Assembly (NCBI GenBank): GCA_031761875.1
Contig: CP134492.1
Location: 3,348,001 to 3,412,000, forward strand
From: Bacillaceae bacterium IKA-2
Lineage (GTDB): Bacteria; Bacillota; Bacilli; Bacillales; Anaerobacillaceae
Direction: 5' to 3'
DNA: 64,000 bases
Shown here piece after piece: positions 16,969 through 28,572 of this stretch. The notes beneath the pieces were generated by a model, which saw only the letters and a program-made list of their open reading frames with translations, did no database searches and was not told the origin of the DNA. The number at the start of each line of letters is the position of its first letter. Position 1 is the first letter of the stretch. Both the position numbers and the translations under genes were made by a program.

Positions 16969-17484
16969 TTATTTTTCAACAATTGGTGCTAAAATTAAAA
17001 ACATGCTTCGGCCTTCCATTTTTGGTGCCGATTCAACCGTTGAAACGTCTGCACATTCTTTAGCCATACGTTGTAATACATCTCTACCGATTGAAGAATG
17101 CGTAATGGCACGACCGCGAAAACGGATCGCCGCTTTTACTTTATCTCCATTTTCAAGAAACTTTCTAGCATTTCGAAGCTTCGTGTTAAAATCATTCAGT
17201 TCAATTGTCGGACTCAAGCGAACCTCTTTTGTTGTAATGATCTTTTGATTTTTACGGGCTTCTTTTTCTTTCTTTTGCTGCTCATATCTAAACTTTCCGT
17301 AGTCCATAATTCGGCATACTGGCGGTTTAGCGGTTGGTGCAACCATAACTAAATCTAAGTTTGCATTTTGAGCCATTTCGAGAGCATCTTGTCTTGTCTG
17401 AACTCCAATTTGATCTCCGTTAGCCCCAATGAGACGAACTTCTCGGGCACGAATGCCCTCATTGACCAACATGTCTTTACTAAT
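16969..17484 (-). CDS. infC: Translation initiation factor IF-3
   Basis: 171 residues. N-terminal domain ends with [17 protein letters not shown]; a basic linker ([10 protein letters not shown]) leads to the C-terminal 30S-binding domain ([23 protein letters not shown]). IF-3 binds 30S subunits and checks start codons. The ribosome site GGAGGTGG (about 17491-17498) is followed six bases later by ATT at 17484, giving (M)[15 protein letters not shown], the expected N-terminus. No ATG or GTG lies at suitable spacing. A rare AUU start is known for infC in E. coli and Geobacillus and allows autoregulation. An upstream in-frame start would add 21 unrelated residues. Confidence 0.93.
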
Positions 17485-17489
17485 AACTA

Positions 17490-17760
17490 TCCACCTCCAT
17501 GTTTTTTTGAAAACTAGAACACCTAGTGTTATTGTCTTTATAACCAATAAAGAATTTGAATGGTTATATTTCGAAGGACCCCAGCAAGTGAATAACCTTT
17601 TTCAAACTAAAAAGGTGCGAACGCATAATGCGCCCACACCTGTATTGATTTATAATCAATATTTCGTAACCTGCAAACGATTGTGTCAGCCAGGTGAGAA
17701 GCGGGCGCCCCTTCTTGAAATGGTTCCAAATATTTTATTCACTAAGAGAGTATACCAAGA
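17490..17760 (-). promoter_or_regulatory. infC leader (L20-type autoregulatory leader)
   Basis: About 270 bases of structured leader before infC. It contains a strong intrinsic terminator at 17608-17642 (AGGTGTGGGCGC paired with GCGTTCGCACCT, then TTTTT on the minus strand) and upstream stem sequence around GGGGCGCCCGCTTC. In B. subtilis L20 binds this leader and promotes premature termination; placement and architecture fit. Short frames inside it are not genes. Confidence 0.75.
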
Positions 17761-17779
17761 GAAATATCCTTTGTCAACC

Positions 17780-19483
17780 CTATGAGCGATGTTTATGTTT
17801 TGCCAATAAGTTTTCCAACTCATTGGCAGGTATTGGTTTACTAAAAAAATACCCTTGTATCTCATCACATTTTTCTTGATGTAAAAAAGCTAAAGCTGCT
17901 TCAGTTTCAACGCCCTCCGCGATAACTCGCAAGCCTAAATTATGAGCTAAATTAATGATTGACGAGACAATTGCTCGATCCCCCTTATTTACAGGAAGTT
18001 CATAGACAAAGCTTTGATCGATTTTTAACGTTGTAATGGGGAAGGTTTTCAAATAACTTAGCGATGAAAAGCCCGTCCCAAAATCATCAATGGCAATTTG
18101 AACTCCTAAGTCACGAATGCTTGTTAATGTATTACCTATCTCTATTGTGTTATCTAATAGACTATTCTCGGTTATTTCGAGTTCGAGTAAATGTGGAGCC
18201 AAATCAATTTCTGCTAATATTTTTGTGATATCCTTAATAAATCTAGGTTCTTTAAAGTGTTTAGTAGAAATATTTATGCTCATCCTTAAAGTAGAAAAGC
18301 CTTGATTATGCCACTTTTTGACCTGCGTGCAAGCTTCTTTTAGTACCCAATTTCCTAAAGGAATAATTAACCCTGTTTTCTCGGCAACTCCGATAAAATC
18401 TAAAGGCGAAATCATTCCACTACCAGGAAGGCGCCAACGAATTAACGCTTCAACAGCTACAATTTCGCCTGTTTCGATATTTACTTGTGGTTGATAATAC
18501 AATTGTAGCTGATCATCAACAGCTAATGCTTTTCTCAGGTCGTTTTCTATTTGGAGCTTTCTTAGTAAAAGTGCATTCATAACGGGTGTATAGAACTTAT
18601 ACGTATTGCGACCATCAGCTTTAGCGGAAGATAACGCAATATCAGCATTTTTCAATAAGTCCTCTTGAGTATCTCCACTTAGTGGATACTGACTAATACC
18701 CATACTAATTTGTAAATGAATATCATAATTTTTATATAAAAATGGACTCTCAAAAATCTTTAATACATAATCACATGCCATTTTAGCTATATTTTCATCA
18801 ATGTCATACAAGATAAAAACAAATTCATCTCCTCCGAAGTGATACAAATTATAATAGCCAATGTTTTTTAAGTTAACTTTTTGTAAACGATGGGCAGCCA
18901 TAATTAAAATATAATCGCCAACAGTATGTCCTAATGTATCATTTATATGTTTAAAATGATCTAAATCTAATAGGACAACAGCGACATTTTTATTGGCCAG
19001 GTTTGCTTCTATTATCAGCTGAGATAAGTCTCTGTCAAGCGCTCTTCGATTCGGTAAATCTGTTAACGAGTCGTGATAGGCCATATGCTCAACAATAAGT
19101 TCTGAAGTTCTCAAATCTGTAATATCAGTCATCGAACCAACTATTTCTGTTATTTCATCACCTAGATAAAGAGGCGCTAACGTCACAAATAAGTTTTTAT
19201 TTTGGAATTTCAGCTCACATCTGCATGACTCGCCATTCAAAGTTTTTGCTACAGGTTTTAGTAGTTTTTCATAGACGTCCTCAGGTAGCAACTTGGAAAG
19301 CGATTTGTGTAAATGTTTACTTTCTATTAAATTTAATTCTTTCGCTAATTTACCGGTAATTAATGTAAAAACACAACCGTTTACTTCGCACTTTTTTAAT
19401 TTAAAAACAAAGTTATCTAAGCTCTTCATTACTTGACCGAAATCATTTTCAAATAATTCCCTATTTTTTGAATCCTTACTCAT
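17780..19483 (-). CDS. Bifunctional diguanylate cyclase/phosphodiesterase (GGDEF-EAL)
   Basis: 567 residues, no transmembrane segment. The N-terminal ~130 residues form a PAS-like sensory domain ending in GSMTDITDLRTSE. The GGDEF domain (about 135-295) has YHDSLTDLPNRRALDRDL, LLDLDHFKHINDTLGH and an intact active loop FGGDEFVF; there is no obvious RxxD I-site immediately upstream. The EAL domain (about 315-560) keeps VEALIRW, NISTKHF, LEITEN, IDDFGTGFSSL, KIDQSFV and QGYFFSKP, so both catalytic sites look active. Substrates are GTP and cyclic di-GMP. Ligand unknown. Four 20-bp tandem repeats lie 78 bp upstream of its start. Confidence 0.93.
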   Translation of the reverse strand: MSKDSKNRELFENDFGQVMKSLDNFVFKLKKCEVNGCVFTLITGKLAKELNLIESKHLHKSLSKLLPEDVYEKLLKPVAKTLNGESCRCELKFQNKNLFVTLAPLYLGDEITEIVGSMTDITDLRTSELIVEHMAYHDSLTDLPNRRALDRDLSQLIIEANLANKNVAVVLLDLDHFKHINDTLGHTVGDYILIMAAHRLQKVNLKNIGYYNLYHFGGDEFVFILYDIDENIAKMACDYVLKIFESPFLYKNYDIHLQISMGISQYPLSGDTQEDLLKNADIALSSAKADGRNTYKFYTPVMNALLLRKLQIENDLRKALAVDDQLQLYYQPQVNIETGEIVAVEALIRWRLPGSGMISPLDFIGVAEKTGLIIPLGNWVLKEACTQVKKWHNQGFSTLRMSINISTKHFKEPRFIKDITKILAEIDLAPHLLELEITENSLLDNTIEIGNTLTSIRDLGVQIAIDDFGTGFSSLSYLKTFPITTLKIDQSFVYELPVNKGDRAIVSSIINLAHNLGLRVIAEGVETEAALAFLHQEKCDEIQGYFFSKPIPANELENLLAKHKHRS

Positions 19484-19560
19484 ATAAATCCCCCTTTGAA
19501 GAATCTCCTACTCCTCATCAAACTTATATGTCTACACTTATGTCATATTCTGATATTTTT

Positions 19561-19640
19561 TTTATCAGTTTATCATTTTTTTTATCAGTTTATCATTTTT
19601 TTTATCAGTTTATCATTTTTTTTATCAGTTTATCATTTTT
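19561..19640. repeat. Four perfect 20-bp tandem repeats
   Basis: Four identical copies of TTTATCAGTTTATCATTTTT in the 290-bp divergent region between the GGDEF-EAL gene and the secreted-protein gene. Each unit holds two TATCA half-sites in direct repeat. Partial matches extend on both sides. Confidence 0.9.
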
Positions 19641-19773
19641 TTTAGATGTAAAATAGGGAAAATATGACTATTTCATGTTATTAGTCTTATGGATGGATAA
19701 AAACGTGAAATATGTCGATACTCTCTATAGATATGGGAAGTTTAAGTAATAGATGAAGATTGAAGGTGTTGTA

Positions 19774-20214
19774 ATGAAAAAAAGTTTATTGATTTCGTTG
19801 GTTTTCTCACTACTAATAAGCCAAACGGTATTTGGTTTTGACCAAGAAAAGATCTTACAAGAAAAATACTTGCCACTTTTTGAAGAAATTGAATTATTAG
19901 CTATCACTAAACTCAACAATTTGATTGACCAGGCTTATATTGAGTATGAGGTAAAGAAGGCAAATAACGAACTGACACTTCCGATTCTTTTTGCCTATAT
20001 AGAAAGGGGAAAACAGTTAGAACGGGAGATTGACGAATATTTCCAGATTACTTTAGCTTCGTTGAAACAGGAAATTAGTGTAAATGGACTCTCGGAAGAT
20101 CTCGCCAGACCTTACGAAAAACAGTATCTAAAATCGAAGCAAAAAAATAAGTTACAACTATTAAAGAACATAACATTTGAAGGACAAACAATTAACTTTG
20201 ACAGAAAAAATTGA
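19774..20214 (+). CDS. Secreted hypothetical protein
   Basis: Not recognised. 146 residues from the ATG at 19774, which has GAAGGTG just upstream; an in-frame ATG at 19753 has no ribosome site. The N-terminus is a signal peptide (MKKSLLISLVFSLLISQTVFG, probable cleavage after FG). The mature part is acidic and then basic, largely helical, without cysteines (EEIELLAITKLNNLIDQAY, YIERGKQLEREIDEYF). Convergent with the cytochrome genes across a bidirectional terminator; no functional link can be claimed. Confidence 0.65.
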   Translation: MKKSLLISLVFSLLISQTVFGFDQEKILQEKYLPLFEEIELLAITKLNNLIDQAYIEYEVKKANNELTLPILFAYIERGKQLEREIDEYFQITLASLKQEISVNGLSEDLARPYEKQYLKSKQKNKLQLLKNITFEGQTINFDRKN

Positions 20215-20264
20215 CGACATATAACTTGTAAGAAAAGCACAAGCGCCTTGGTTCTATACAATAG

Positions 20265-20300
20265 AAAAACTGCTGCAGGTATAAACCCACAGCAGTTTTT
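20265..20300. terminator. Bidirectional terminator
   Basis: AAAAACTGCTG pairs with CAGCAGTTTTT around a 14-base loop, between the convergent secreted-protein and tetraheme-cytochrome genes. A repeat-family fragment, AAAGCACAAGCGCCTTGG, lies just before it (20234-20251). Confidence 0.8.
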
Positions 20301-20334
20301 TCATATTAGCCAACCTTTGTTGTACAGATACTAC

Positions 20335-20787
20335 TTATTCTACTCCATGTCCGTGGAAGAATAATGTATCATGACAGCGAGTGCATTCCATATCATTCTC
20401 GATAACCTCTAAATGTCTATCAACAATATTACGACTTCGCTTGCTATTTTCAATATTGTGACACGATAAACATGAGTCATTTGTTACTTCAGCACCATAT
20501 TCAGTATATGAATTTGGGTTCATTTTTCCAGTAACAGTACTTATGACGTGACCGACACCATTAATTTTGTCTTTAATGAAGCCTTCTCCATGACAGCTTA
20601 AACATTCTAAGTTTCCATGAGGAGTATCTGAACGACTTCCTTCAAACTCTGGTGCATCGTGACAGTTTAAGCAAAAGCTAGTTTTCGTTGTTGCACTAGT
20701 TGTACTGACAGTGAGGACAGAAATAACGATTCCTACAAAAATAGCGGCTAAAATAATCAACCATAACTTCTTTTTAGTAAAAGTCAT
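20335..20787 (-). CDS. Tetraheme membrane cytochrome c (NapC/NrfH-like)
   Basis: 150 residues. One N-terminal transmembrane anchor (about 8-28) is followed by four CxxCH heme sites: CLNCH at 39, CLSCH at 62, CLSCH at 106, CTRCH at 135. NapC/NirT/NrfH-type proteins take electrons from menaquinol and pass them to an exported reductase. That is the inferred role; it is short for the family and resembles NrfH in length. It starts 2 bp after the stop of the hexaheme lipoprotein gene, so the pair should be translated together and work together outside the membrane. Confidence 0.85.
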   Translation of the reverse strand: MTFTKKKLWLIILAAIFVGIVISVLTVSTTSATTKTSFCLNCHDAPEFEGSRSDTPHGNLECLSCHGEGFIKDKINGVGHVISTVTGKMNPNSYTEYGAEVTNDSCLSCHNIENSKRSRNIVDRHLEVIENDMECTRCHDTLFFHGHGVE

Positions 20788-20789
20788 AT

Positions 20790-22262
20790 CTATTCACCCA
20801 CTTTCCATGGCGTAGCGCCAATGTAGATTTTTTGACCATTTTCTTCATAATGTTCTTGCTCCCAAGGCCAAATTGATTCCCAACCATCTTCTTCAGCAGC
20901 ATTGCCATCTTTCTTCTGTGCCCAAATATATTGGTCTGGAGTAAGTCCGAAGGTTCTTCCTTCTTCATCAAGGTTAAAAACATGCTGCCTAGTTCGATTA
21001 CGCCCACCTTCGTTATCCCAGTTGTCATAACCGAATGTCTCCCAGCCAAGACTACCGTTAAGAACTTCCATTCTTTCTTCTGACTCAAGTCCATGACAAG
21101 TTCTACAGTTATCTACTGGTACCTCACCAAATGTACGTGGGTTATCAGGATTATTACCGACATTATGAGAGTCATGACAGTCAAAGCAAGCTAATTGTCC
21201 GTGGATTGTCTCTCCACCTTTAATGTGATCTTGTAATTTCATATCCATATCTTGTTGGTGGTCACGACGGCCTTTACCATCGATGGAAACTTGACGGTTC
21301 CCAGTGCCCCAAGCAGGTCGTGTATATTGCATAATATCCATATAATCGTGCTCGCCTAACATAAAGCCGCGGTTATCATTTGCACCATTTCCATAAACAA
21401 GGTTTGTTTGAGCACGTGTATGACATTGCTCACAAACCATTTTACGTGTTGGATCATCCATGTCTAGTTTAACAGGATTAATAATGTTTCCTTCTCTTAA
21501 CGGAAATTCAACATGATCTTTTCCTGGACCATGACAGCTTTCACAACTGATTTCTACAGTAGTAATGAAAGTGTCTCTTAAATCTTCACGCTCTCCGTTA
21601 ATAAACTCGTCTTTCGCTTCCGCCCAAGCATCTGGATTAAATCCAGTTGTATGACAGCCAATACACTGTTCTTGCCATGAACGCCAAGTACCATACGTTC
21701 TAATATCATCCTCAGCGTGTAATTCTAAGTATAAGAAATTATACCCAGCACGCTCTAGATTTCCTTCAAATTGAACCGTTGTTGATTTATCTATGTTCCA
21801 GCTAATACCACCATTTTCAGTAGTTGATAAATAAGCCTCCTGAGGTGAACCGTCATAGTAAACCATGTAACGCTGCTTACGGATGCTACCTACTGTATAA
21901 TCGACTTCCTCTAACTCATACTTTTTAGTACTAAGGTAAATAGTATCCTTATCTTTTTGATCCAGGATTAAGTAGGAATCCATTTCATCCCATTTCTCGG
22001 GAACCCAGTCCCAAACAAGCTCTCCTCCCCCAAGATTGGGGCCCTTTGCTGTTTTTTTCGTGTGCCAAGATGTTTCCCATTTTTCAGTATGATCATCGTG
22101 ACAATCGGCACATTTGTCAGGACCAACAAATTTATCATAATATGATAAATCTGCTGCAACTACTGGGGATGGAACCGCAGTATCTTTAGAAGAACACCCT
22201 GAAACAATTATTGCCATAGCTATAAAGAACACTGCATAAACTAGCAATCGACTTTTCTTCAT
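20790..22262 (-). CDS. Hexaheme cytochrome c lipoprotein
   Basis: 490 residues, predicted to be anchored on the outer face of the membrane by a lipidated Cys23 (lipobox VSGC after a hydrophobic signal). Six CxxCH motifs lie at residues 51 (CADCH), 200 (CIGCH), 240 (CESCH), 277 (CEQCH), 359 (CFDCH) and 386 (CRTCH). Between hemes 1 and 2 there is a ~145-residue heme-free insert including VGSIRKQRYMVYYDG, and heme 3 is followed by GPGKDHVEF. These features resemble cytochrome c-554-like multiheme proteins. The terminal acceptor is unknown. Likely partner of the tetraheme protein encoded directly downstream. A good AGGAGG site precedes the ATG. Confidence 0.88.
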   Translation of the reverse strand: MKKSRLLVYAVFFIAMAIIVSGCSSKDTAVPSPVVAADLSYYDKFVGPDKCADCHDDHTEKWETSWHTKKTAKGPNLGGGELVWDWVPEKWDEMDSYLILDQKDKDTIYLSTKKYELEEVDYTVGSIRKQRYMVYYDGSPQEAYLSTTENGGISWNIDKSTTVQFEGNLERAGYNFLYLELHAEDDIRTYGTWRSWQEQCIGCHTTGFNPDAWAEAKDEFINGEREDLRDTFITTVEISCESCHGPGKDHVEFPLREGNIINPVKLDMDDPTRKMVCEQCHTRAQTNLVYGNGANDNRGFMLGEHDYMDIMQYTRPAWGTGNRQVSIDGKGRRDHQQDMDMKLQDHIKGGETIHGQLACFDCHDSHNVGNNPDNPRTFGEVPVDNCRTCHGLESEERMEVLNGSLGWETFGYDNWDNEGGRNRTRQHVFNLDEEGRTFGLTPDQYIWAQKKDGNAAEEDGWESIWPWEQEHYEENGQKIYIGATPWKVGE

Positions 22263-22508
22263 TTTTTTTCCTCCTTATTAGTTTTCCATTGTTTGAAATT
22301 AAACTCGAAATACTTTGCATCTCTTGTTACTCATATTTTCACATATTCTCACACATTCCGTTATCAGCGAAATTCATATTTCATTGTCTTTAAACCCTGA
22401 TTTAAATAGTCTGATATAGATAAATAACCTTACTCCATGTAGGGTATTTACCTGACACCCGTCTAAACATCATCGACGATTGAAACAGAAACATCTAAAC
22501 AAAAAGAA
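22263..22508 (-). promoter_or_regulatory. Upstream region of the cytochrome genes
   Basis: About 245 bp between the response-regulator terminator and the hexaheme gene. It should hold the promoter and the regulator's binding sites. It is AT-rich; I could not identify a convincing sigma-A promoter or a repeated operator by eye. Confidence 0.4.
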
Positions 22509-22510
22509 AA

Positions 22511-22537
22511 AAGCCAAGGGAACATCCCCTGACTTTT
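22511..22537 (-). terminator. Response-regulator terminator
   Basis: On the minus strand AAGTCAGGGGA pairs with TCCCTTGGCTT and TTTTTTC follows. It begins at the regulator's stop codon and separates the sensor genes from the cytochrome genes. Confidence 0.75.
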
Positions 22538-23191
22538 TTACTCATTTATCGATATTAAGCCTTGACTAGCCGCGTAACGGACTAGTTCAGATCTCTTTTT
22601 CATATTTAATTTGTCTGAAATTCTCGACTTATGTGTTTCAATTGTTTTCACACTAACAAATAATTCGTCTGCTATTTCTTGATAGGTAAAACCGAGTGCC
22701 ACATATTTCAAAACTTCCATTTCTCTAGCACTTAATGGGCACTCATTAGCCTTATCTTTTGCATTATCTGTTTCTGCAAAACTTTTAAACAAAAAACTAG
22801 ACATTGTCGGATAAATATAAGTTTCACCTTGAAGCACTGCCTTTATTGCAGATATTAATTCCGTATCTACTGCCTTCTTTAATACATATCCAGAAGCGCC
22901 AGCTTTTAGCGCCTTTTTTAAATAATCTTCTTCTGAAAACATTGTCAGCATGACTATTTTTATAAAAGGGAATTTTTCTTTGATTTGCTTCGTTGCCTCA
23001 ATTCCTCCGATCCCTGGCATTGAGATATCCATTAAAATCAAATCTGGTTTCCATTTTTCCGCATTTTTAATAGCTTCCTCACCGCAAGAGACCGTACCAA
23101 CTATATCCCATTCCTCTACTTTAGAAAGCAGTAATTTAATACCTGATAATAAAACACCATGGTCATCAGCTATCATTATTTTCGGTTTCAC
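22538..23191 (-). CDS. NarL/FixJ-family response regulator
   Basis: 217 residues. The receiver domain has the acidic pocket IADDHG (D10, D11), phospho-acceptor D55 in LILMDISMPG and the conserved Lys in GYVLKKAV. A LuxR-type helix-turn-helix follows at about 150-215 (LSAREMEVLKYVALGFTYQEIADELFVSVKTIETH, split here only by reading). The start is GTG at 23191 with GGAGGATTTAA upstream. It overlaps the 3' end of the kinase gene by 26 bp, so the two were translated together. It probably controls the cytochrome genes just downstream. Confidence 0.9.
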   Translation of the reverse strand: MKPKIMIADDHGVLLSGIKLLLSKVEEWDIVGTVSCGEEAIKNAEKWKPDLILMDISMPGIGGIEATKQIKEKFPFIKIVMLTMFSEEDYLKKALKAGASGYVLKKAVDTELISAIKAVLQGETYIYPTMSSFLFKSFAETDNAKDKANECPLSAREMEVLKYVALGFTYQEIADELFVSVKTIETHKSRISDKLNMKKRSELVRYAASQGLISINE

Positions 23192-24902
23192 TTAAATCCT
23201 CCTCCCCAATCCAAATATCCTGCACATATATTGTCGTGCCAATTCCTTTATTAGACTCTATTACAAGCTTTCCGCCAATAGACTCAATCCGTTCCTGCAT
23301 TCCTTTTAACCCTAAATGATCTTTTGTCAGATCAGCATTCAAAATTTGTTTTGCATCAAATCCCTTGCCATCATCCTCAATAATAACTGTCGCTATTCCT
23401 TTAGCGTATTTTAAAATGATGCTAATATTGTCCGCCTCAGCATGCCTTGCTGCATTCGTTAAAGCCTCTTGAATAACACGATAGATGGTAACTTCTATCA
23501 ATGAAGATAATCGCAAACGATTTAAGCCAATCACTTGAATATCGATATCAATCTCATATTTTTTCATGTACTCAATGCCATATTTTTTAATTGCGGGTAT
23601 TAGACCAAGATCATCTAATACGCTTGGTCTTAGTGACCATGATATATAATGAATTTCATCTAACGTTTGTTGGGTAACTTCTTTGATTTCAGCTATTTTT
23701 TGTTTCATCTCTTTACTTATCTCATGCTCGTGTAATAACGATAAACCAACGATAATAGAGGTGATTGATTGACTTGTTTCATCGTGTAATTCTCTTGCAA
23801 TTCGTTTTCGCTCTTCTTCTTGGGCCGTTATTACTCGATCAAGTAACTTTAGTCTAAGTTGCTCTTTGTATTTAATTTCCTTCCAAAGTTGAACATTTTC
23901 AGCTATTACTGATAACTGCCTAGCAAATGAAGTCATAAACTTCAATGTTGTATCATCTGCTTTGTTTTCAAAACAACCTTTAATATAGCCAATATTTTTT
24001 TGATTTGCTTCAATAGGTATAGTAAAATGATTAAGCCTAATACACTCAGTCTCGTAATCATCACTACAAATTTGACAGCGTTGATTCCTTTTAAAAGTCG
24101 TAATTTTTTCATCACTTAGTTCAATTTCAATTGTACAACTATTCATATCTAGTTCATCGATAAGACGTTCCGTAGCATTTTCAAGATGCTTTTCGAAATT
24201 TTTAATATCAGCGGACCCAACTGCAAGCTGATGTAATAACTCAAGTTCACTATTTCGCATTTGTAATACTTTTAAATAGTGATTATTCTCTTCTTTTTTT
24301 ATTTTTAAACGTGTAATCATTGTATTGAATTCTCTAGCCAGTAAACCAATTTCATCTTTAGAATCAATTTCAACATGACATTCTAAATTTCCTGTTCCTA
24401 CCTGCTTACTTATATTCATAATATGAGTTAAATCTCGATACATATATTTCGTTAAGAAAAAAGCAATAATAAATCCAAGTAATCCGATGAAAACTGTTGA
24501 TAAAATAATCGTAAAGGTTACATCATCTATCGTTCGATAAATTTGCTTTTCATTTAAACCAACGCGAATAAAGCCTGCTTCACCACCTAAAATAGGTGAA
24601 ACGACATCATGAATGACTCCTACTTCCGAGTTTAAGAATTCTAGCTGTTGAGTATCATCTCCCCATTCATTTCCTTCTAATACATTTGCTTTCAATAAAT
24701 CTTCTGAAACTTTAAAATCTTGCCCAAATGTATGGATAATTATTTCTAAGTTTTGGTCGACTACAAAAATATATTCGATGTCTGGGTTATTTTGGATTGT
24801 GTCTAGCAATAAATTATGAAGATTATAAATGTCTTTCAAAATTGTAAAATCAACGCTACGAGAACTTAAATCACTTGAAATAGAAATCGCTCGCCTATCT
24901 AG
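23166..24902 (-). pseudogene. Sensor histidine kinase, 3' fragment (split by IS21)
   Basis: C-terminal 92% of a membrane kinase whose first 48-50 codons lie at 27495-27643, across the IS. Reading in frame from the insertion site gives LDRRAISISSDLSSRSVDFT and on. It includes the rest of an extracellular sensory domain, a transmembrane helix, HAMP, a GAF-like domain with cysteines 235, 255, 258 and 266 (counted from TTG at 24839), the HisKA_3 phospho-site RIARELHDETSQ (H352) and an HATPase domain (DDGKGFD, LGLKGMQER). A fragment could be translated from TTG at 24839 but would lack the first membrane helix and part of the sensor. Joined with the 5' piece it would be 626 residues. Confidence 0.9.
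24898..24902. repeat. IS21 target site duplication, left
   Basis: TCTAG directly before the element's TGTGA end; duplicated at 27495-27499. Confidence 0.85.
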
Positions 24903-24978
24903 TGTGAGTGATAAACTAAATTGGACAGTTTCCGCCAGATAAGAATGAACACTTATTTTCCAGGAGGAAGGGTAGCAC

Positions 24979-25017
24979 TTCTATAGGTGATGGACCGTAG
25001 GGCCATCACCTATAGAA
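24979..25017. other. Perfect hairpin inside the IS upstream of istA
   Basis: TTCTATAGGTGATGG and its exact complement around a nine-base loop, in the 208-bp region between the left end and istA. It could block transcripts entering from the interrupted host gene or mask the istA ribosome site. Confidence 0.6.
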
Positions 25018-25110
25018 ACAATTTCCTTTTCTCTATAAATTTAAAATAAGACCAAGACACTGTATGATGATAAGTAGTTTCTTAGATTTTCAACAGTGTG
25101 GAGGAAAAAG

Positions 25111-26694
25111 GTGGATAAGTGGCAAATGTATATGGAAATTCAGCAATTACTAAAGCAAGGATTCAGTAAATCGAAAGTAGCTGGAAAGTTAGGGGTTTCA
25201 AGAACAACGGTTTATCGCTATTTAAAAAGTACGCCAAGTGACATGAGTGAATGGGTGGTTCAACTTGAAAGTAGAAGAAAAAAGCTAGACCCATTCAAAG
25301 AATTGATCCTTTCGTGGTTGTATTCACATCCTGATATGACAGCTGCCCAGGTTTATGATTGGCTACAAGAAAAGAAACAGGTAAAAGATGTTTCTGAAAG
25401 TACAGTAAGAGCCTATGTAAGAGAGTTACGACTATCATATGATATTTCTAAAGAAACAACTATGCGTGATTATGAAGCCGTGGCAGAGTTACCGATGGGC
25501 GAACAAATTCAAGTAGATTTTGGACAAACAGTTCAAAAGACAATCGTGGGAAAAACGGTCAGACTTTATTTCATAGCTTTTGTTCTATCCCACTCTAGAT
25601 ACAAATACAAAGAATGGGTGGATCGGCCTTTCACCACCAAAGATGTTATACGTACCCATGAAAATGCCTTTCAATATTTTGCTGGAATTCCTAGGGAACT
25701 CGTTTATGATCAAGATGCGCTTCTTGTCGTTAGCGAAAATGGAGGTGATTTAATTCTAACAAAAGAGTTTCAAGCGTACAAAGAAGATCGGAAGTTAACG
25801 ATTTGGGTTTGTCGTAAAGCAGATCCAGAGACAAAGGGAAAAATTGAAAATATGGTAGGTTTTGTGAAAGTGAACTTTTCCAAACATCGGATATTTCAAA
25901 ATATTGATAAATGGAATGAAGATGGGTTAGCGTGGCTGAAGCGTACGGGTAATTATAAGATTCATAACACAACAAAAAAAAGACCGTGCGAAGTGTTTCT
26001 CCTTGAAAAGCAACACTTACGACCAGTCTCAACGGCTACTGGCAGTTTACCTGCAGGTAGTCAAACTAAACTCCAATCTATTATAACAAGGACGGTTCGA
26101 AAGGACAATACGATTTGGTATAAATCTAATCGCTACTCAGTTCCTCTCGGAACATTTGAAAAGTATCCAGAAGTAGCAATATCTGAAGTCGACGATGCCT
26201 ATTTAATGATCGTTGAAGTTGACACAGGGGAAATATTTGCGAAACATAAACTGTCTGTTGCAAAAGGAGAATTAATTCAAGATCGACAACATACGCGTGA
26301 TCGAACAAAAGGGGTTACAGCTTATATACAGTCAGTAGCAGAAAAATTCGAAAATACAGATATGGCACTCTCTTTTCTAGAAACGATTAAATCAGCGTTT
26401 CCGCGATACATTAGGGATCAACTCCAGCTGATATCAAAAGAAATAAAATGTCATGAGCAGTCAATTATTAATGAAGCTTTAAAAGAATGTGTTAACCGGA
26501 AACTATTTTGTGCAACAGATTTTATCGATATGGTTCAGTACCTTGACCGACAACGACAAATGATTGTTACACCTCCAACTGATAACGATGAAACAACTAA
26601 AATACTTCATGAAAACAACCAATCGTTAGTGAATACGAAACCAGCAACCAGAGATATAAATGATTATTTGTCAGTATTGGCAGGTGATGTTTGA
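25111..26694 (+). CDS. istA: IS21-family transposase IstA
   Basis: DDE transposase, 527 residues from the GTG at 25111 (GGAGG six bases upstream; an in-frame GTG at 25096 overlaps that site). It has an N-terminal helix-turn-helix (SKSKVAGKLGVSRTTVYRYL), the catalytic core with QVDFGQT (first Asp), YDQDALLVV (second Asp) and TKGKIENMVGFVK (Glu), and a C-terminal beta-barrel domain (WYKSNRYSVPLG). All catalytic positions look intact, so the element may still move. Confidence 0.94.
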   Translation: MDKWQMYMEIQQLLKQGFSKSKVAGKLGVSRTTVYRYLKSTPSDMSEWVVQLESRRKKLDPFKELILSWLYSHPDMTAAQVYDWLQEKKQVKDVSESTVRAYVRELRLSYDISKETTMRDYEAVAELPMGEQIQVDFGQTVQKTIVGKTVRLYFIAFVLSHSRYKYKEWVDRPFTTKDVIRTHENAFQYFAGIPRELVYDQDALLVVSENGGDLILTKEFQAYKEDRKLTIWVCRKADPETKGKIENMVGFVKVNFSKHRIFQNIDKWNEDGLAWLKRTGNYKIHNTTKKRPCEVFLLEKQHLRPVSTATGSLPAGSQTKLQSIITRTVRKDNTIWYKSNRYSVPLGTFEKYPEVAISEVDDAYLMIVEVDTGEIFAKHKLSVAKGELIQDRQHTRDRTKGVTAYIQSVAEKFENTDMALSFLETIKSAFPRYIRDQLQLISKEIKCHEQSIINEALKECVNRKLFCATDFIDMVQYLDRQRQMIVTPPTDNDETTKILHENNQSLVNTKPATRDINDYLSVLAGDV

Positions 26695-27458
26695 TGAGTC
26701 AGTTTGCACAAGTGCAGGAGTTATTAAAGACACTCCGATTATCGGAAACATCTACTAGTATAACAAGACTAATTAAAGAAGCAGAATCAAACGAAGTTTC
26801 CTATACATCATTTCTACTAACGATATTAACATTTGAACAAAAGCGCCGGGAAGAAAAACAAACAGAAAAACGCTTAAAATGGGCTACATTTCCGTATCAT
26901 AAAACGATGATCGACTTTAATCTTGATGAACAGAGATCATTAAGTAAAAAACAGTTTAATCAATTAAAAGAGCTAACATGGGTAGAGCAGCTGTACAACA
27001 TTATTTTATTGGGACCGCCAGGTGCAGGGAAAACTTTATTAGCAATAGGATTAGGGATTGAGGCAATCAACCGCGGATATAAAGTTTCGTTTATTTCTAT
27101 GGGTGATTTAATCCATACGTTAAAAACAGAAGAAATCACTCGAAAGTCACAGACTAGAATGAGCAGAATTAGAAATTCAAATTTAGTGATTATTGATGAT
27201 CTTATGTTTATGGCAATGGATCAACGTGAAGCCAACCTATTTTTCCATTTAATAAACTATTTATATAATAATGCTTCTATTATACTCACATCAAATAAGG
27301 CCCCAAGTGATTGGGGCGAGTTGATGGGCGATTCAAGTATTACAGCAGCCATTTTAGATAGGATCATTCACCGAGCTGAAGTTATTCACTTAGATAATGA
27401 CAGTTATCGAATGAAGCACCGATCTTCCATTTTTGGTGGAGAAAGTGTTCAAAGTTAA
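26691..27458 (+). CDS. istB: IS21-family helper ATPase IstB
   Basis: AAA+ ATPase of 255 residues related to DnaC/DnaI that assembles at target DNA and stimulates IstA. Walker A is LLGPPGAGKTLLAI, Walker B LVIIDDLMF, and the sensor region reads ILTSNKAPSDW. The C-terminus RIIHRAEVIHLDNDSYRMKH is typical. ATGA overlap with istA indicates coupling. Confidence 0.95.
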   Translation: MMSQFAQVQELLKTLRLSETSTSITRLIKEAESNEVSYTSFLLTILTFEQKRREEKQTEKRLKWATFPYHKTMIDFNLDEQRSLSKKQFNQLKELTWVEQLYNIILLGPPGAGKTLLAIGLGIEAINRGYKVSFISMGDLIHTLKTEEITRKSQTRMSRIRNSNLVIIDDLMFMAMDQREANLFFHLINYLYNNASIILTSNKAPSDWGELMGDSSITAAILDRIIHRAEVIHLDNDSYRMKHRSSIFGGESVQS

Positions 27459-27494
27459 TTGGCGAAAAGTGTTCATTTCTACTTGACGGTCACA

Positions 27495-27499
27495 TCTAG
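27495..27499. repeat. IS21 target site duplication, right
   Basis: TCTAG directly after the element's right end; matches 24898-24902. Confidence 0.85.
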
Positions 27500-27643
27500 G
27501 TCTTCACTTAGTTTAACGACTAATATTTCTCTTAAAATAATCGTACTCGTTAAAGCCATTAATAGAACTAGGCCGACGACCATCCCTAGTACTTTCGTTT
27601 TGACACTTTTATCTTTTAAGCCTTGGACAATGAATTTTCTCAT
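27495..27643 (-). pseudogene. Sensor histidine kinase, 5' fragment (split by IS21)
   Basis: First ~50 codons of the interrupted kinase, starting at ATG 27643 with AGGAG upstream: MRKFIVQGLKDKSVKTK, then a transmembrane helix (VLGMVVGLVLLMALTSTIIL) and VVKLSEDLD. Translation now runs into the IS and stops at 27479 after 54 residues. Its ATG overlaps the stop of the upstream binding-protein gene (ATGA), so both were coupled. It joins exactly with the fragment ending at 24897. Confidence 0.9.
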
Positions 27644-28572
27644 TGTAGTTCTCCTAATTCGCTGATCATTTCAATAATTGGCTGAAACAACTCTGGATCT
27701 GGATCAACGAATCGATCGGTATTTAGTTTTTCGAGAGCCTTTTTACCTCCCTCATTTAAATGCATTCCTTGAATAACATCTTTAAGTTTATTTTTTAAAT
27801 CTTCATCAATATTTGGATTTACGACAATAGGTGAATTTCCTACATAAGGTCCCTCAGCTATTATTTTTATTTTTTTCAAAAGTGGATCGTTATTCTCTTT
27901 AAGCTGTTGATAAACCAAACTATGTGTCGCACCAGCGTCCACTAATCCATTTGCAACAGCTAAAATTGTATTATCATGACTATAAGTAAAATATGTTTTC
28001 GAAAAAAAAGTATTTATATTATGATTATTTTTTTCAAGATCGTAATTAGTATAGAAGTATCCAGAATATGAAAGCGGATCGGAAAAAGCAAAGCTCCGCC
28101 CTTGGAGATCGTCAAATTCTTCAATATCACTATCTTTTCGAGTAATAATATAGGAGGTGAAAGTTTCTTCTTCATTAACAATTGGCATACTAATCTTTTT
28201 CAAAATACCTTCTTCTATTCCAATGACCGCTAAGTACGCACAAACAATCCCAGCATCAAGTTCGCCATTTTCAAACATTTCTTTTACTTCTGAATATGTT
28301 TGTTTTTGAATGATTTCTACTGGTATTCCTAGTTCCTCTTCTAAGTAATTAATAAATTTATAATACATTCGATGAGTTTTACGAATTGAATGGATCGAGA
28401 CGATAGCGAATTTAAATGACTCATCCTCTATTACTTGTGCTTCTATTTCAGCTTCGGCAGCGACCTTTAATGAAATAACAGAATCTATGTTTTGATTAGA
28501 ACAGGCTGTAGTAAATATAATCGAAAAAATGACAAAGAGAATTATACTTGACGATTTGCGAAGTAGAAACAT
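27640..28572 (-). CDS. PhnD-type substrate-binding lipoprotein (sensor component)
   Basis: 310 residues from ATG 28572, which follows AAAGGGGGG; upstream in-frame codons lack a ribosome site. The signal ends in a lipobox-like TTAC with lipidated Cys near 24. The mature part is a type-2 periplasmic-binding fold of the phosphate/phosphite/phosphonate (PhnD) group: YKFINYLEEELGIPVEII, SYSGYFYTNYDLE, YTYSHDNTILAVANGLVDAGAT-like segments, and EGPYVGNSPIVVN. No ABC permease or ATPase is nearby. It is coupled by a 4-bp overlap to a histidine kinase, as with the AioX-AioS-AioR arsenite sensors, so it probably presents a ligand to the kinase. Ligand unknown. Confidence 0.85.
   Translation of the reverse strand: MFLLRKSSSIILFVIFSIIFTTACSNQNIDSVISLKVAAEAEIEAQVIEDESFKFAIVSIHSIRKTHRMYYKFINYLEEELGIPVEIIQKQTYSEVKEMFENGELDAGIVCAYLAVIGIEEGILKKISMPIVNEEETFTSYIITRKDSDIEEFDDLQGRSFAFSDPLSYSGYFYTNYDLEKNNHNINTFFSKTYFTYSHDNTILAVANGLVDAGATHSLVYQQLKENNDPLLKKIKIIAEGPYVGNSPIVVNPNIDEDLKNKLKDVIQGMHLNEGGKKALEKLNTDRFVDPDPELFQPIIEMISELGELQ

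Follow-up and report, generated by a model that had tools for sequence, protein, structure and literature searches.

In the TtrS/TtrR system a PhnD-type domain, fused to the kinase, senses an electron acceptor. AioX, ArxX and ArrX are binding proteins whose signal, passed on by a kinase and a regulator, controls arsenic molybdoenzymes (PMC5908839). We analyzed a related set of genes in Bacillaceae bacterium IKA-2, within a stretch of 64,000 nucleotides (positions 3,348,001-3,412,000 of the 4.42 Mb single-contig genome) referred to below as the window. Five genes, all on the minus strand, encode a PhnD-type binding lipoprotein (X), a sensor kinase, a NarL-type response regulator, a hexaheme c-type cytochrome lipoprotein and a membrane-anchored tetraheme cytochrome (Table 1). 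Coordinates and family matches both agree with an earlier note that had proposed this gene set. Our preferred reading, to which we give about an even chance, is that a sensor cassette of the AioXSR/ArrXSR kind, descended from the arsenate-type sensors of Bacilli and re-tuned for another ligand, precedes a two-cytochrome electron outlet.

The sensor cassette and its split kinase

As in ArrXSR, AioXSR and ArxXSR, a PhnD-type binding protein without a transporter, a kinase and a regulator lie in one run, and the stop codon of X overlaps the start of the kinase (ATGA), as the earlier note had stated. Since AioX, ArxX and ArrX have already been described with a kinase and a regulator, the three-part arrangement is of a known kind; its occurrence beside respiratory genes, also pointed out in that note, has precedents in AioXSR and ArrXSR. 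The regulator has no AAA+ domain, and the same is reported for ArrR of Firmicutes (PMC5908839). The locus differs from these systems in two pocket residues of X, considered below, and in that the output is cytochromes, not a molybdoenzyme; no arsenic molybdoenzyme adjoins the cassette in the window neighborhood.

A role of X as part of an ABC transporter was rejected on scores and neighbors. The predicted lack of an ABC partner held in a crude check, in which the exact LSGGQ signature was flagged in no open reading frame (ORF) of window positions 10000-45000. The TtrS type was rejected as well (15.2 bits against 750 for the TtrS model); X is a separate protein, whereas the binding domain of TtrS is part of the kinase.

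The kinase gene is split in two by an insertion sequence (IS) of the IS21 family. The element lies between 5-base direct repeats, which represent the target duplication, and its IstA and IstB both score above their cut-offs. The genome carries six full-length copies of it, all identical, which suggests recent activity and a recent insertion. The kinase frame is open across the empty site and its product is 69% identical to the kinase of another Anaerobacillus genome (G006), and the large remaining ORF, 23166-24839, has no N-terminal membrane segment. The reading frames of the other cassette genes are open. With its kinase split, the cassette can probably not be induced in this strain, and the cytochromes are probably left at a basal level. 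The hairpin at 22539-22507, between regulator and cytochromes, suggests that the genes form two transcription units.

Table 1. Features of the sensor and cytochrome locus (window coordinates)
Feature	Position	Strand	Basis
X, PhnD-type binding lipoprotein, AioX/ArrX subfamily, 310 residues	27640..28572	-	PF12974 207.3 bits (cut-off 27)
Sensor kinase, 5' piece, including one target duplication copy (27495-27499)	27495..27643	-	frame continues across IS at empty site
IS21-family element, 2592 bases	24903..27494	+	ends, 5-base duplication
istA (in IS21 element)	25096-26694		NF033546 200.7 bits (against 160)
istB (in IS21 element)	26694-27458		NF038214 245.8 bits (against 200)
Sensor kinase, 3' piece	23166..24902	-	ORF 23166-24839: part of Cache, HAMP, HisKA_3, HATPase_c
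NarL-type response regulator, 217 residues	22538..23191	-	Response_reg 96.7 bits, GerE 66.6 bits
Terminator-like hairpin 3' of regulator	22507..22539	-	15 pairs, T tail
Weak candidate regulator site	22440..22455		8/10 dyad positions
Hexaheme c-type cytochrome lipoprotein, 490 residues	20790..22262	-	six CXXCH, lipobox-like VSGC
Membrane-anchored tetraheme NapC/NrfH-like cytochrome, 150 residues	20335..20787	-	four CXXCH, PF03264 38.4 bits (cut-off 24.1)
Terminator-like hairpin 3' of tetraheme gene	20265..20300	-	16 pairs

The binding protein and its pocket

The first PDB match of X was ArrX (8.8e-42) and the second AioX (2.7e-30), ahead of PhnD (1.4e-15) and PtxB. By sequence, X is a member of the AioX/ArrX signaling subfamily, and the likening of the sensor set to AioXSR in the earlier note is supported. 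The published pocket consists of Y88, C106, Y131, S161, S163, H192 and D210; in AioX, D210 bonds phosphate and C106 links arsenite, and the source cautions that selectivity is not set by pocket residues alone (PMC5908839). Comparison with the known sensors, as the earlier note had suggested, gave a divided result. Five of the seven residues are shared, among them Cys106 (C111 in X), which is absent in PhnD; Y131 is replaced by Phe (F138) and D210 by His (H217), and X does not have the full AioX/ArrX pocket. A Ser is found at the position of AioX Pro240.

Besides the genus genomes, a class sample (398 genomes) yielded relatives of X in 10 and a phylum sample (299 genomes) in 27, the window's genome belonging to both samples. 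We aligned 41 X proteins, 39 from fetched loci together with those of the window and of G005; L098 and L120, with no X above the BLAST threshold, lie outside the 41, as do matches L086-L089 and the first copy of G568. Phe131 and His210 occur together in all five X located next to thrS in Anaerobacillus, and neither is present in the other 36. Position 210 is occupied by Asp in 26 proteins, Glu in five, His in five, Asn in three and Tyr in two, while Ser at 240 is not exclusive (8/41).

An ArrA-like gene is a neighbor of 24 of the 27 X that combine Cys106 with Asp or Glu at 210; none was seen for L093, L115 and L108, the last on a 7.4 kb contig. Some of these neighbors are only 20-28% identical, so that molybdoenzyme is the safe word for them. 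None of the six assessable X with His or Tyr at 210 has such a neighbor (Fisher p 7.6e-5, the six being from one clade and so not independent). A limit of 8.5 kb was used for this count; the ArrA match of L119, just outside, was counted nonetheless, and G005 was excluded, its contig ending in the regulator.

In the tree, which was made without G005, the cytochrome-linked X form one group with L090, from another family (100/100). The sister of this group is the ArrA-linked X of Bacilli (fork 95/95), including X of a second X-kinase-regulator set in this genome (L028). That set follows an ArrA-like operon scoring below both cut-offs (1059 bits against 1600 for ArrA, 303.8 against 450 for ArrB). 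The five cytochrome-linked X are not a clade alone, L026 being placed with L090. The simplest history would be that an ArrX-type sensor was duplicated and that its pocket then changed.

Ordinary arsenic sensing has to be weighed against this. X would then bind arsenate or arsenite, and the cytochromes would serve arsenic respiration or detoxification as an auxiliary chain. The nearest solved relatives of X bind arsenic oxyanions, Cys106 is retained, pocket residues alone do not decide selectivity (PMC5908839), and an ArrA-like operon with a sensor set of its own is present elsewhere in the genome. Yet Y131 and D210 are replaced in every copy at the thrS site and in no ArrA-linked X, and molybdoenzymes are absent near all six assessable His/Tyr210 loci; we consider arsenic sensing unlikely. 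Two residues common to the published arsenic sensors are lost, so that an arsenate-like ligand should not be assumed by default. With D210 lost and C106 retained, a protonated tetrahedral ligand (arsenate or phosphate, for instance) becomes less likely, and thiol-reactive or fully ionized anions are left as the putative ligand class of a re-tuned X. Selenite-, tellurite- or antimonite-like anions are candidates.

Other X sets were noted as well. L090:4436-10067 (G163) holds an X-kinase-regulator set of the window's branch, with Tyr210, beside an ethylbenzene-dehydrogenase-like heme protein (PF09459). Seven X (L095, L096, L097, L116, L117, L118 and L121) have Ser for Cys106 and make up a single branch with full support; genes for a kinase and a regulator accompany them, no ArrA-like gene was seen nearby, and we regard them as another sensor group.

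Outputs at the thrS site and the hexaheme family

The cassette lies between thrS and a GGDEF/EAL gene preceding infC. We compared seven Anaerobacillus genomes, the window's included. Five of them have the sensor at this site; in G002 and G004 thrS and the GGDEF gene are present and the cassette is absent. In G005 the sensor lies beside thrS on a contig ending in the regulator. A cytochrome gene follows the sensor in all four genomes in which the downstream side is visible: hexaheme and tetraheme in the window and G006, hexaheme and NrfC/NrfD replacing the tetraheme in G001 (A. alkalilacustris), and a lone, different hexaheme (about 22% identity) replacing both in G003. Conservation of the five-gene order, which the earlier note had left to be tested, is thus partial: sensor and cytochrome are kept together at one site of the genus, and the full order is common to G006 only. 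A further set of G003, located elsewhere (C55; L026:3285-9297), consists of X, kinase and regulator followed by a six-CXXCH NapC-cytochrome c fusion and an ApbE flavin transferase.

These data bear on whether sensor and cytochromes are mere neighbors, the sensor controlling something else and the cytochromes being there by chance of genus synteny. Such a view would account for the five-gene order being found in one relative only, for the separation of sensor and hexaheme in G005, as far as contigs show, and for the weakness of the site before the hexaheme gene. It fits poorly with cytochrome genes that vary between genomes and yet leave a cytochrome in every visible case, and with the heme protein that follows the related C55 set of G003. 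Recurrence at the thrS-GGDEF site in G006, G001 and G003 suggests more than chance, and we hold the mere-neighbor view to be very improbable.

Some features around the site were noted separately. Plus-strand ORF 19753-20214 (153 residues, signal-like start) has a counterpart of 141-155 residues with a similar start at the same place in G006, G001, G003 and G004. The GGDEF/EAL protein (17780-19483) has 567 residues against 721-749 in other Anaerobacillus; about the first 170 are missing, and no match to them was found in 17001-20400. In G006, thrS is interrupted and lies in two frames (L022:5577-7084), probably through an assembly error in an essential gene.

Relatives of the hexaheme are 45-77% identical and widely scattered. 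They were found in 4/7 genus genomes, 3/398 genomes of the class sample (the window's included), 5/297 of a phylum sample around a Desulfuromonadales relative (two already known) and 1/274 of a sample around a Burkholderiales relative, namely that genome itself. Named examples with 45-55% identity are from Desulfuromonadales (including Pelovirga terrestris), another deltaproteobacterium, a Desulfobulbaceae and, in Burkholderiales, Rubrivivax, Ramlibacter and a Burkholderiaceae metagenome-assembled genome (MAG). Six CXXCH motifs and six further His are invariant in all 12 aligned relatives, so that the His suffice for two per heme as a count, not as a structure.

We inspected 20 hexaheme loci, 18 of them assessable (L044 and L046 begin at the gene). 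Genes in GC-rich loci were called by codon position, and the neighbors of L039, L047, L048 and L049 were judged by similarity only. A kinase, regulator or activator gene adjoins the hexaheme in 13 of the 18. This is an X-kinase-regulator set in the window, G006 and G001; a divergent kinase/regulator pair in G005, G188 and G168; a divergent kinase in L140; a kinase and regulator upstream in L038, L039, L042 (the same as L142), L047 and L138; and the end of a sigma-54-type activator in L045. No regulator was recognized near the hexaheme in L040, L041, L043, L139 and L141, the last being a second, 34% identical hexaheme of G811 whose neighbors were judged without a family search. X-kinase-regulator sets outside the genus mostly adjoin molybdoenzymes. 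The separation of sensor and cytochromes in homologous clusters, named in the earlier note as evidence against a link, is thus partly seen outside the genus; inside it, a cytochrome follows the sensor in all four cases visible at the thrS site.

L142 has a kinase, regulator, hexaheme, DmsE-type decaheme and MtrB/PioB barrel in a row, an arrangement like that of extracellular electron conduits. L040 has FeS/NrfD-type and NrfA-type heme proteins upstream of the hexaheme. In L139 and L046 (L139:8951-12478, L046:1-3261; two MAG-type genomes) a duplicated hexaheme is fused in frame into a 12-heme protein; in L139 this protein adjoins a decaheme and an ORF that has no Pfam match. An ABC ATPase and a FetB-like UPF0014 permease lie 3' of the hexaheme in L038:9495-10966 and L138:10503-12064, and L039 is alike by ORF starts.

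L142 resembles the MtrCAB/DmsEFAB systems in that a hexaheme relative directly precedes the decaheme and the barrel; the window hexaheme differs in scoring below the DmsE (39.7 against 192.2 bits) and OmcA/MtrC (21.4 against 209.3 bits) cut-offs, by which these decaheme families were rejected for it, and its host has no outer membrane. The nearest PDB profile matches were 6i5b (2.5e-11, the best), MccA and NrfA. 6i5b is OcwA, a Gram-positive surface cytochrome; the similarity is low and in short pieces, and OcwA has more hemes.

The tetraheme resembles NrfH and NapC in its one N-terminal hydrophobic segment, four CXXCH motifs and PF03264 match above the cut-off, and it belongs to the NapC/NirT/NrfH superfamily. 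It was rejected as NrfH of an NrfHA pair (45.7 bits against a cut-off of 134.2), its partner being the hexaheme, with no NrfA adjoining. The genome contains seven PF03264 matches in all, and at about 4.087 Mb two adjoining NapC-type proteins with 12 and 10 CXXCH (L153:790-3292).

The earlier note saw no known catalytic reductase subunit in the cluster. The hexaheme may itself take that part. On a rival view it would be a dedicated reductase, fed by the tetraheme, for one soluble acceptor, namely the ligand sensed by X, rather than a general outlet. Conservation over the whole length at 45-55% identity across phyla and the usual proximity of a regulator gene would both suit a specific substrate, and 6i5b, MccA and NrfA are the nearest profile matches. 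Against this stand the six heme motifs with six invariant further His, which leave no obvious open heme, and the MtrAB conduit at one hexaheme locus; no CXXCK-type motif turned up, in the course of work that included no search aimed at CXXCK. We find a dedicated reductase rather unlikely. Given the MtrAB link (clear in one locus), the lipoprotein start and the partners on the quinol side, the hexaheme is best read as a surface terminal cytochrome.

Proposed control and electron path

In the arrangement we favor, the re-tuned sensor with its two-cytochrome outlet, X would bind a small anion outside the membrane and engage the kinase, which would phosphorylate the NarL-type regulator. The regulator would activate a separate promoter before the hexaheme gene. 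Electrons from menaquinol would reach the tetraheme anchor first, then the hexaheme lipoprotein at the outside of the membrane and finally an external acceptor. Control of the cytochromes by the sensor is suggested by their position and by one weak candidate site. This is a dyad, TCAGG-six bases-CCTGA, modeled on the published Chrysiogenes arrA site and scored out of ten against shuffles; its similarity was first spotted by eye, and we treat it as a lead only. Before the cytochrome genes it scored 9/10 in G006 and G003:C35 (shuffles as good, 0.005 each), and before X it scored 9/10 in G003:C35 (0.015), the other four X being not above chance. Scores upstream of three hexaheme genes lacking X (7, 6 and 6 of 10) and of the four ArrA-type operons tested (6-8/10; 0.135 to 0.935) were not above chance either, and across the whole window there were fewer matches than expected.

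Several observations weigh against this reading. The dyad is weak in the window (8/10 at 22440-22455, 0.065) and in G001, where it lies at another place (8/10, 0.060), and at G003:C55 it is no better than chance (7/10, 0.335). The kinase is broken in this strain. The hexaheme of G005 lies on another contig than the sensor, adjoining a different kinase/regulator pair, and among the inspected loci X was never seen beside a hexaheme in other genera. An MtrAB neighbor is clear in one hexaheme locus only. The predicted structures were unusable, with a mean predicted local distance difference test score of 43.5 for the hexaheme (12-row alignment) and 35.3 for X (2-row alignment).

More tentatively, the data could be drawn together as follows. 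After duplication in Bacilli, an arsenic-oxyanion sensor would have acquired, in Anaerobacillus, specificity for another anion, thiol-reactive or fully ionized, and would control an exchangeable surface electron outlet; the hexaheme would stay adjacent to a sensor while the sensor class and the partner on the quinol or outer-membrane side (NrfH-like, NrfCD, MtrAB) vary by host. This is a possibility that we put clearly below the preferred reading.

No description of the cassette or of the hexaheme family was found in the open-access PMC literature (titles and abstract starts, among the matches listed). What appears to be new here, judged from gene and protein comparison, is the changed pocket, the exchange of outputs at one site, and a hexaheme family that is patchy and accompanied elsewhere by unrelated two-component systems. 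Two related modules in one genome, one with a canonical arsenic pocket beside an ArrA-like operon and the other with a two-residue change beside cytochromes, represent a natural experiment on the specificity of oxyanion sensors. Intact relatives, A. alkalilacustris DSM 18345 among them, would allow both the sensor and the outlet readings to be tested directly, and the small, widely scattered hexaheme family could provide the terminal cytochrome by which a Gram-positive genus exports electrons.

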